From contig CACPKO010000010.1 in NCBI GenBank assembly GCA_902634555.1, positions 1-39,256 of the forward strand: a DNA stretch of 39,256 nucleotides, in the 5' to 3' direction. The notes beneath the pieces were generated by a model. The model saw only the letters and a list, made by a program, of their open reading frames with translations, ran no database searches and was not told the origin of the DNA. This stretch comes from Actinomycetota bacterium (GTDB lineage Bacteria > Actinomycetota > Acidimicrobiia > Acidimicrobiales > MedAcidi-G1). A program made the position numbers and the translations under genes. Shown here in pieces: positions 2,754-4,504 of the stretch (positions are counted from its first letter, which is position 1; each line of letters starts with the position of its first letter).

Positions 2754-3959
2754 TTAAATGGTTGCGACTACTCCACTGTCAATGAGTGCACCAATAGCAG
2801 TAGGAGTCAGTCCGAGATCTTCAGAAAGAATCTGTTCTGTGTGTTCTCCAAGCAGAGGAGCTGTTGCTGCACCACGATCTTGAATTTGCGAAAATGCAAG
2901 TGGTGATCCTGGAACTAGATGCTTTCCGACACCAGGTTGTTCTAAATCAGCAAATAGCGGGTTTTTAGTTGAACATCTTTCATCTTCCTCAACTAACTCC
3001 ATAAAGGACTGATAAGGACCCCAGCAAACTCCATGGTCATCAAGTGATTTAGATACTTCTAAAAAAGTTCTTTTTTCAAACCACGGTAAAAAAAGTTGGG
3101 TCAATTTATCTCGAGCAAGAAACCTCTCCCCCTCATCGGAAAAATCAACTCCCAGGGCTGAAGCGAGCTCTTGAACTTGAGGAGCTGTACCTGTAGCTTC
3201 CTGTAGTCCTCGCCATTGTTTCGGGCTTATCGCAACTACCATGACTCGACGACCATCTTGGGTAACAAAATCTGTTCCATAAGCTCCATAAAGATCATTC
3301 CCGATTGGGGGCCTCTCCGTTTGATTGATTTGAGCTTCAGCGATTCCTCCAAGCATTCCTGCAGCAGCGAGAGCTACATCGGTTAACGCAAGTGTCACTA
3401 AATCGCCATGACCGGTTTGAAAACGGTATCTATCGGCCGCCAATAGGCCAAGGGCCGCCATTTGTCCACACATTAGGTCCCATGCTGGGACTACGTTATT
3501 TACTGGGCGAGGGTCGTCTGGATAGCCAGTCGCATTCGGATAACCAATTGCGCAATTTACGGTGTAATCCACGGCAGTTGTTCCATCATGGCTTCCAATA
3601 ATGGAAACCATGACGAGATCTTCGCGTTGAGCGCTTAATTCGCCGTAATCAAGCCAACCTTTTGTGGGAAAGTTCGTAATAAAGTTCCCTGCTTTTGCTA
3701 TCAGCGCGGAAAGCAGGTCTTGTGCTTCAGGGTCTCTTAAATTCAGTGCGATTGACCGTTTTCCTTTGTTGAGACCATTCCAATAAAGGCTGGCCCCATT
3801 TTCTGTAAGCGGCCATCGTTTGTGATCAATTCCGCCACCTATCTGATCAAATCGTATGACATCAGCTCCAAGTTGAGCCAAAGTCATGCCTCCAGAAGGA
3901 GCGGCAACAAAGGCTGAGCCTTCAACGACGCTCAATCCTTGAAGTGGACGGTCCCTCAA
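2754..3959 (-). CDS. mct: CoA-transferase family III, mesaconyl-CoA C1-C4 transferase-like
   Basis: 401-residue CaiB/BaiF-type (family III) enzyme. The N-terminal block VVEGSAFVAAPSGGMTLAQL, the following ADVIRFDQIGGGIDHKRWP, the segment DYTVN, and PAWDLMCGQMAALGLLAA resemble, from memory, 2-methylfumaryl-CoA isomerase (Mct) of Chloroflexus, which moves CoA within mesaconyl-CoA in the 3-hydroxypropionate bi-cycle, more than general formyl-CoA or carnitine CoA-transferases. Asp161 in AWD is the expected catalytic aspartate. The start is TTG at 3959, overlapping the TGA stop of the upstream peroxiredoxin as TTGA, so translation is probably coupled. Family is sure; the specific reaction is inference from sequence resemblance, and no other bi-cycle gene is adjacent. 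Confidence 0.8.
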   Translation of the reverse strand: MRDRPLQGLSVVEGSAFVAAPSGGMTLAQLGADVIRFDQIGGGIDHKRWPLTENGASLYWNGLNKGKRSIALNLRDPEAQDLLSALIAKAGNFITNFPTKGWLDYGELSAQREDLVMVSIIGSHDGTTAVDYTVNCAIGYPNATGYPDDPRPVNNVVPAWDLMCGQMAALGLLAADRYRFQTGHGDLVTLALTDVALAAAGMLGGIAEAQINQTERPPIGNDLYGAYGTDFVTQDGRRVMVVAISPKQWRGLQEATGTAPQVQELASALGVDFSDEGERFLARDKLTQLFLPWFEKRTFLEVSKSLDDHGVCWGPYQSFMELVEEDERCSTKNPLFADLEQPGVGKHLVPGSPLAFSQIQDRGAATAPLLGEHTEQILSEDLGLTPTAIGALIDSGVVATI

Positions 3960-4423
3960 CTCAACTCTTCTATATCTTTGAGAAGTTGGGCCGAATGCTC
4001 TTCTAGGCTCGTGGCACTGCTTGGATCATAGGCTCTGGCGATCACCCCGTCTGGAGAAATAAGATAGGTGATTCGTTCCGGCAAACTCACAAATGGGTGA
4101 TCTGGAGGACGAGCAGCTTCATAAGCTGTCCCCATCACTCGATCTGGATCTGACAATAAGGAGAACTCGTATCCTTGACTGTCAGCAAATGCTTTTTGCT
4201 CTTCAACTGTGTCAAAACTGGCGCCAATTATGACTGCATTTAACGCTTCAAATTCGAGAGTTCGGTCACGGAACCCTCCTCCTTCAAGCGTTCAACCAGG
4301 GGTGCTGGCTTTCGGATACCACCAAAGAGCTACCCATTTGCCAGTCAAGTCTTCTAGTTCAACAATATTTCCATGTTGATCTGATGCTGAGAATTTCGGC
4401 GCAGCACTACCTTCTTTAAGCAT
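3956..4423 (-). CDS. Selenocysteine-containing peroxiredoxin (BCP/PrxQ type), read through TGA
   Basis: Thiol peroxidase of the AhpC/TSA superfamily, reducing peroxides in the cytosol. Reading frame 4423 to 3956 encodes 155 residues, the normal BCP length, with one in-frame TGA at 4292-4294 (codon 44). It falls exactly on the peroxidatic cysteine: P37-K-A-S-T41-P-G-[TGA], the PxxxTxxC motif, followed by TLEGGGFRD, typical after that cysteine. The conserved Arg is at 117 (ERITYLISPDG). No other stop interrupts the frame and the protein has no cysteine, so no resolving Cys. A SECIS-like hairpin follows the TGA. The ATG at 4423 has GGAGG four bases upstream; an earlier in-frame ATG at 4498 adds an unrelated tail. 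The alternative is a nonsense mutation or sequencing error; the evidence favours selenocysteine. SelA/B/C/D are not in this window. Confidence 0.85.
4256..4278 (-). promoter_or_regulatory. SECIS-like hairpin downstream of the peroxiredoxin TGA
   Basis: In the mRNA sense, GAGGGUUC (4278-4271) pairs with GAACUCUC (4263-4256) over eight pairs including one G-U, closing a 7-base loop CGUGACC. The loop begins 21 bases after the UGA and has G at its second position. Bacterial SECIS elements are described as hairpins inside the coding region with the apical loop about 16-37 bases after UGA and a G in the first two loop positions, so this fits. They recruit SelB with Sec-tRNA. Pairing is seen; function is inferred. 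Confidence 0.75.
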
Positions 4424-4504
4424 TCTTCCTCCAGTATTCGGACAACCTGACTGTAGTAGCAATCCGCCTTCAGGCGTGACATTTTCCGCCATCCTCACCC
4501 TTCT

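Follow-up and report, generated by a model that had tools for sequence, protein, structure and literature searches.

A bacterial gene, referred to here as sec-prx, almost certainly encodes a functional selenocysteine (Sec)-containing peroxiredoxin of the PrxQ/BCP type, in which UGA at codon 44 would be decoded by way of a SECIS hairpin. The gene was found in a 39,256-nt stretch of DNA (the window), contig C10 of an assembly of 1.28 Mb that is 72.65% complete. Its features and those of its neighbours are listed in Table 1.

Table 1. Features at and near the sec-prx locus of the window
Feature	Position	Strand	Details
sec-prx, PrxQ/BCP-type peroxiredoxin gene	4423-3956	minus	155 codons, one in-frame TGA; terminal stop TGA 3958-3956
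TGA codon 44, read here as selenocysteine, peroxidatic position	4292-4294	minus	basis: frame and ortholog conservation
Shine-Dalgarno-like GGAGGA	4427-4432	minus	just 5' of ATG 4423
bSECIS upper hairpin	4256-4278	minus	8-bp stem: 5' arm 4278-4271, 3' arm 4263-4256; 7-nt apical loop CGUGACC 4270-4264
UGA plus whole extended SECIS hairpin, 54 nt	4241-4294	minus	MFE -22.7 kcal/mol, z -4.6, 0/200 shuffles as stable
CoA-transferase family III gene	2754-3959	minus	directly downstream of sec-prx; longest ORF, TTG start 3959
WhiB-like transcription factor	2226-2564	minus	Pfam E 8e-13; two genes downstream of sec-prx
127-aa ORF	1771-2154	minus	no Pfam match

The sec-prx frame and its conservation

The sec-prx frame runs for 43 codons from its ATG to the TGA at 4294-4292 and is then open to the terminal TGA. 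Read through, the frame matched Pfam AhpC-TSA over residues 5-129 (E 4e-31), which confirmed the proposal of the first-pass annotation that the locus holds a 155-residue BCP-type peroxiredoxin with a single TGA. The TGA had been placed at the Cys of the PxxxTxxC motif, and residues 37-44 indeed read P K A S T P G U. An open downstream frame with an FRD motif and Arg117 had also been described; Arg117 and RDR at residues 52-54 were present and conserved. The AhpC-TSA domain over most of the length, the PxxxTxxU motif and the active-site Arg place the product in the PrxQ/BCP type. The score against NCBIfam PRK09437 (thiol peroxidase) was 88.5 bits, under the equivalog cut-off of 140, and therefore the product is, by sequence score, a PrxQ-like relative outside the PRK09437 equivalog. 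The score against NCBIfam PrxU (NF040737) was 34.5 bits, also under the equivalog cut-off (270). With the standard code, no ORF of at least 80 aa was listed at the locus. Standard calling would therefore overlook sec-prx as readily as split it in two, whereas the first-pass annotation had expected the split.

TGA was found at codon 44 in all 40 orthologous loci of the GTDB species-genome collection (48-94% identity), every one of which ends at an ordinary stop; this was the alignment of homologues at position 44 that had been proposed as a check. Whole-genome searches showed sec-prx with one TGA in 37/37 genomes of the window's family, and a search of the order gave TGA in 68 of the 69 best matches. 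Seven more genomes, from other families of the phylum, also carried the TGA in sec-prx. Marine Acidimicrobiales MAGs were the nearest named genomes, including MedAcidi-G2B at 91% identity and the more distant MedAcidi-G3 at 54%. Comparison with the two nearest relatives gave dN/dS ratios of 0.045 and 0.095 for the part 3' of the TGA; therefore the downstream part is translated and under selection. Many orthologs, like the window, have a purine-rich GGAGG stretch ahead of the ATG. A Sec-peroxiredoxin 56% identical to that of the window, with a differently built hairpin, was seen in a MAG named Deltaproteobacteria (L037, PAQX01000033.1), which suggests either transfer or misbinning.

The codon-44 UGA corresponds to a Cys codon in homologues, being TGC in genomes G160 and G173 and in more distant PrxQ. 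The G160 ortholog (L154, G160:C200) is 50% identical; selA is still present in this genome, and the hairpin has decayed to 4/7 pairs with the loop CGAGAUA. Codon 44 is TGA in G087 and G128, which belong to the same family as G160. In the G173 genome, selA was not found. A third exception, in the selA-positive genome G106 (L156, G106:C39), has Ser in place of the peroxidatic residue, and its active site is degraded. The Cys and Ser homologues kept just 1-4 of the 7 SECIS pairs, and in the more distant PrxQ homologues, which have Cys at the site, the hairpin was absent. In the protein tree, the Sec proteins together with G160, G173, and G106 were grouped apart from ordinary Cys PrxQ (support 100/99); on this tree Sec requires four changes, with the positions of the three long-branched exceptions unsure. 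G160 is likely to represent a change from Sec to Cys, and its TGC ortholog, in which the hairpin has decayed, offers a ready-made natural control.

The longest ORF of the CoA-transferase gene starts at the last sense codon of sec-prx; therefore, the two genes may be co-transcribed.

The SECIS hairpin and the selenocysteine machinery

According to the bacterial SECIS model, the loop is 3-9 nt with G in its first two positions, the stem is 4-16 bp, the distance from the UGA is 16-37 nt and the MFE is -7.5 kcal/mol or lower (PMC13188914). The sec-prx hairpin falls within this model: its 7-nt loop starts with C-G-U and begins 21 nt after the UGA, its stem has 8 bp, and the 23-nt stem-loop alone gave -8.7 kcal/mol. 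The short stem by itself was unexceptional against shuffles (z -1.5). A scan of the window with Rfam at gathering thresholds returned nothing. Because bacterial SECIS elements are too variable to be captured by one general model, an alignment of our own was used; the model of the element had a single match in the window's own genome, at sec-prx.

Covariation in the stem was analyzed in 38 distinct sequences. The data showed pairing in 90% of cells; the figure was 84% for shuffles and did not exceed 57% on sliding. The number of cells changed on both sides was 23, against a shuffled mean of 8.7 (0/500 shuffles as high), and about 11 separate double changes were counted on the tree. In the same 38 sequences, neither the number of pairs nor the number of pair types was above that in shuffles, and the case for covariation is for this reason based on the double-changed cells, the slide control, and the tree count. 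In a wider set, all seven inner pairs were kept in 63/76 distinct sequences; in several of the others the pairing appeared by eye to be one base out of register, with GCGUGAC as the loop. The hairpin also marks the protein sequence. Codon 52 (Arg), which lies in the CGUGAYC loop, was CGT in 79/80 sequences, while CGT makes up 23% of the Arg codons in the window; as judged from this usage, the loop fixes the codon. The stem links codons 49-51 with 54-56, and in the orthologs Phe51 occurs mostly with Thr or Ile55 and Leu51 with Ala or Val55, so the amino acids at residues 51 and 55 appear to be paired as base pairing would require. The covarying SECIS, with its stem coupling these two residues, is a clean case of RNA constraint on protein sequence.

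The window's own genome contains intact, adjacent selA (422 aa) and selB (572 aa) genes with a one-base overlap on contig C29 (G000:C29:6956-9942, L089). The first-pass annotation had proposed a search for selA, selB, selC, and selD as a check, and the result was divided: selA and selB were present, but neither selC nor selD was found in this genome, which is about 73% complete, and the tRNA-Sec model gave only below-cut-off matches, taken as ordinary tRNAs. The absence of selC is explained by a contig break. The distance between selA and tRNA-Sec in relatives is about 13 kb (in G001 C8, selA is at 61.6-62.7 kb and selC at 76.0 kb; in G005 C18, selC is at 14.8 kb and selA starts from 27.8 kb), while C29 ends 6 kb past selA on the side where relatives have selC. 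A tRNA-Pro was seen on the contig carrying selA and selB, and near these genes in several relatives too. Among the 37 genomes of the family, selA was found in 34, selB in 33, selC in 34, and full-length selD in 34, and those without one sel gene were all at most 88% complete; in most relatives selB, selC, and selD are all present. The UCA anticodon was confirmed by ARAGORN in the sampled tRNA-Sec loci of relatives. The selD gene of most Acidimicrobiia relatives itself has one in-frame TGA (loci L099-L106 and the family table), and in related genomes a short hairpin follows the selD UGA, its loop sharing GUGAY with the sec-prx SECIS (by eye in L100, L102, and L106). The first-pass annotation had called the gene a probable selenoprotein, and the conserved TGA, the genome's own selA and selB, the tRNA-Sec and selD of relatives, and the covarying SECIS all supported this call.

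Active site, proposed mechanism, and alternative explanations

The usual peroxiredoxin site was retained, with Pro37 nearly invariant and Thr41, Sec44, and Arg117 invariant. The window protein contains no cysteine; position 49, five residues past Sec44, is Gly. Among 82 distinct Sec proteins, 68 had no Cys, 13 had one, and one had two. The AlphaFold2 model, made with 24 orthologs, had a mean pLDDT of 93 and a pTM of 0.89, and its best PDB matches were BCP/PrxQ proteins and AhpE (TM about 0.8-0.9).

In the mechanism that we propose, SelB and Sec-tRNA-Sec would decode UGA-44 under the direction of the SECIS, which lies within the coding sequence 21 nt downstream. Pro37, Thr41, and Arg117 would position the Sec44 selenolate as they do in other peroxiredoxins, and the selenolate would attack the peroxide to give a selenenic acid. 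Since the protein has no cysteine, it would act as a 1-Sec enzyme, and an external thiol would have to reduce the selenenic acid; this could be a protein of the thioredoxin type or a low-molecular-weight thiol, for example mycothiol. Mycothiol is a possible reductant: full-length MshC-like proteins were present, all of them matching below the curated cut-off, the best in the window's genome at 442 bits and the next, probably a cysteinyl-tRNA synthetase, at 295 bits. A glutaredoxin-type mycoredoxin was not found in a search of this 73% complete genome.

Two alternatives would deny selenium to the protein. If sec-prx were a pseudogene, or its TGA a miscall or mutation of TGC or TGT, the codon would simply be a stop, as UGA normally is in this genome. 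However, a TGA shared by 40/40 loci from independent assemblies excludes sequencing error, and the low dN/dS 3' of the TGA (about 0.05-0.1), the conserved start region and length, and the covarying SECIS speak against a decayed gene; pseudogene and sequencing error were both rejected on conservation, and we give them practically no chance. It is also highly improbable that the UGA is read without selenium, whether a special tRNA inserts Trp, Gly, or Cys or a leaky ribosome reads through. The failure to find a tRNA-Sec gene in the incomplete genome would agree with such reading, but selA and selB are present, the selD of relatives carries its own TGA, the hairpin fits the bacterial model, and the UGA stands exactly at the position of the catalytic Cys. 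Moreover, UGA is the ordinary stop of 7 of the 24 long ORFs in the window; therefore there is no general recoding, and global UGA recoding was rejected on this stop usage.

A third alternative accepts Sec and questions the function, the protein serving mainly as a redox sensor or relay, for example, instead of as a peroxidase. Turnover would depend wholly on a partner, since there is no resolving Cys and most of the Sec proteins are Cys-free, and a WhiB-like gene lies two genes downstream. Yet the peroxiredoxin site keeps its catalytic residues, and the 1-Cys peroxiredoxin AhpE, an active peroxidase, is close in fold. We regard a main role as sensor or relay as unlikely, and a Sec-dependent peroxidase as the best account of sec-prx.

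Significance and comparison with known systems

The results indicate that a group of marine actinobacteria, the MedAcidi-type Acidimicrobiia, depends on selenium for a conserved antioxidant enzyme, and they correct a gene that is truncated or overlooked in standard annotation. A broader scenario can be offered tentatively, with somewhat less than an even chance of being right. The Cys-free, single-selenium peroxiredoxin would be ancestral and nearly fixed in a large marine Acidimicrobiia clade, rarely lost or reverted to Cys (as in G160); together with a Sec-containing SelD it may keep the costly Sec machinery in small genomes, and its selenium would be reduced directly by a mycothiol-like thiol.

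Sec-peroxiredoxins with TxxU have long been known from Eubacterium acidaminophilum (2001, as cited in PMC13188914). Among the known families of the Sargasso Sea selenoproteome they ranked second in abundance, with 43 sequences (PMC1088965), and the GOS metagenomes contained 253 (PMC2398784). A survey in 2006 counted five Cys-to-Sec changes and no Sec-to-Cys change in Prx (PMC1794560). In the searchable literature, which leaves out most subscription papers, we found no description of a Sec-peroxiredoxin in Acidimicrobiia or MedAcidi. The first-pass annotation had described Sec-peroxiredoxins as known in general but not from a streamlined marine actinobacterium. The enzyme type is thus already known, and the new part appears to be only the assignment to marine Acidimicrobiia. 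Some metagenomic TxxU reads may come from these bacteria, probable owners of some of the marine TxxU peroxiredoxins that have so far been orphans.

The window protein resembles the bacterial Sec-Prx family in its PF00578 fold, in Sec at the peroxidatic TxxU, and in a bSECIS directly downstream (PMC1088965, PMC2398784, PMC13188914). It differs from the known members in having no Cys and in being spread over an Acidimicrobiia clade, and, unlike PrxU of Eubacterium acidaminophilum, it falls far below the PrxU cut-off and is nearer to the short PrxQ/BCP subfamily. With PrxQ/BCP proteins (PRK09437; Xanthomonas, Sulfolobus Bcp, M. tuberculosis BcpB) it shares length, fold (TM about 0.9), the PxxxTxxC site, and Arg117, but it would have Sec for the peroxidatic Cys and has Gly at position 49, the place of the resolving Cys in many PrxQ (L151, L153, L160). 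AhpE, the 1-Cys peroxiredoxin of M. tuberculosis, for which a PDB entry with mycothiol exists (5id2), likewise has a single catalytic chalcogen, no resolving Cys, and a similar fold; its chalcogen is that of Cys, whereas Sec is predicted here, and the identity over the structural alignment is 26-28%.
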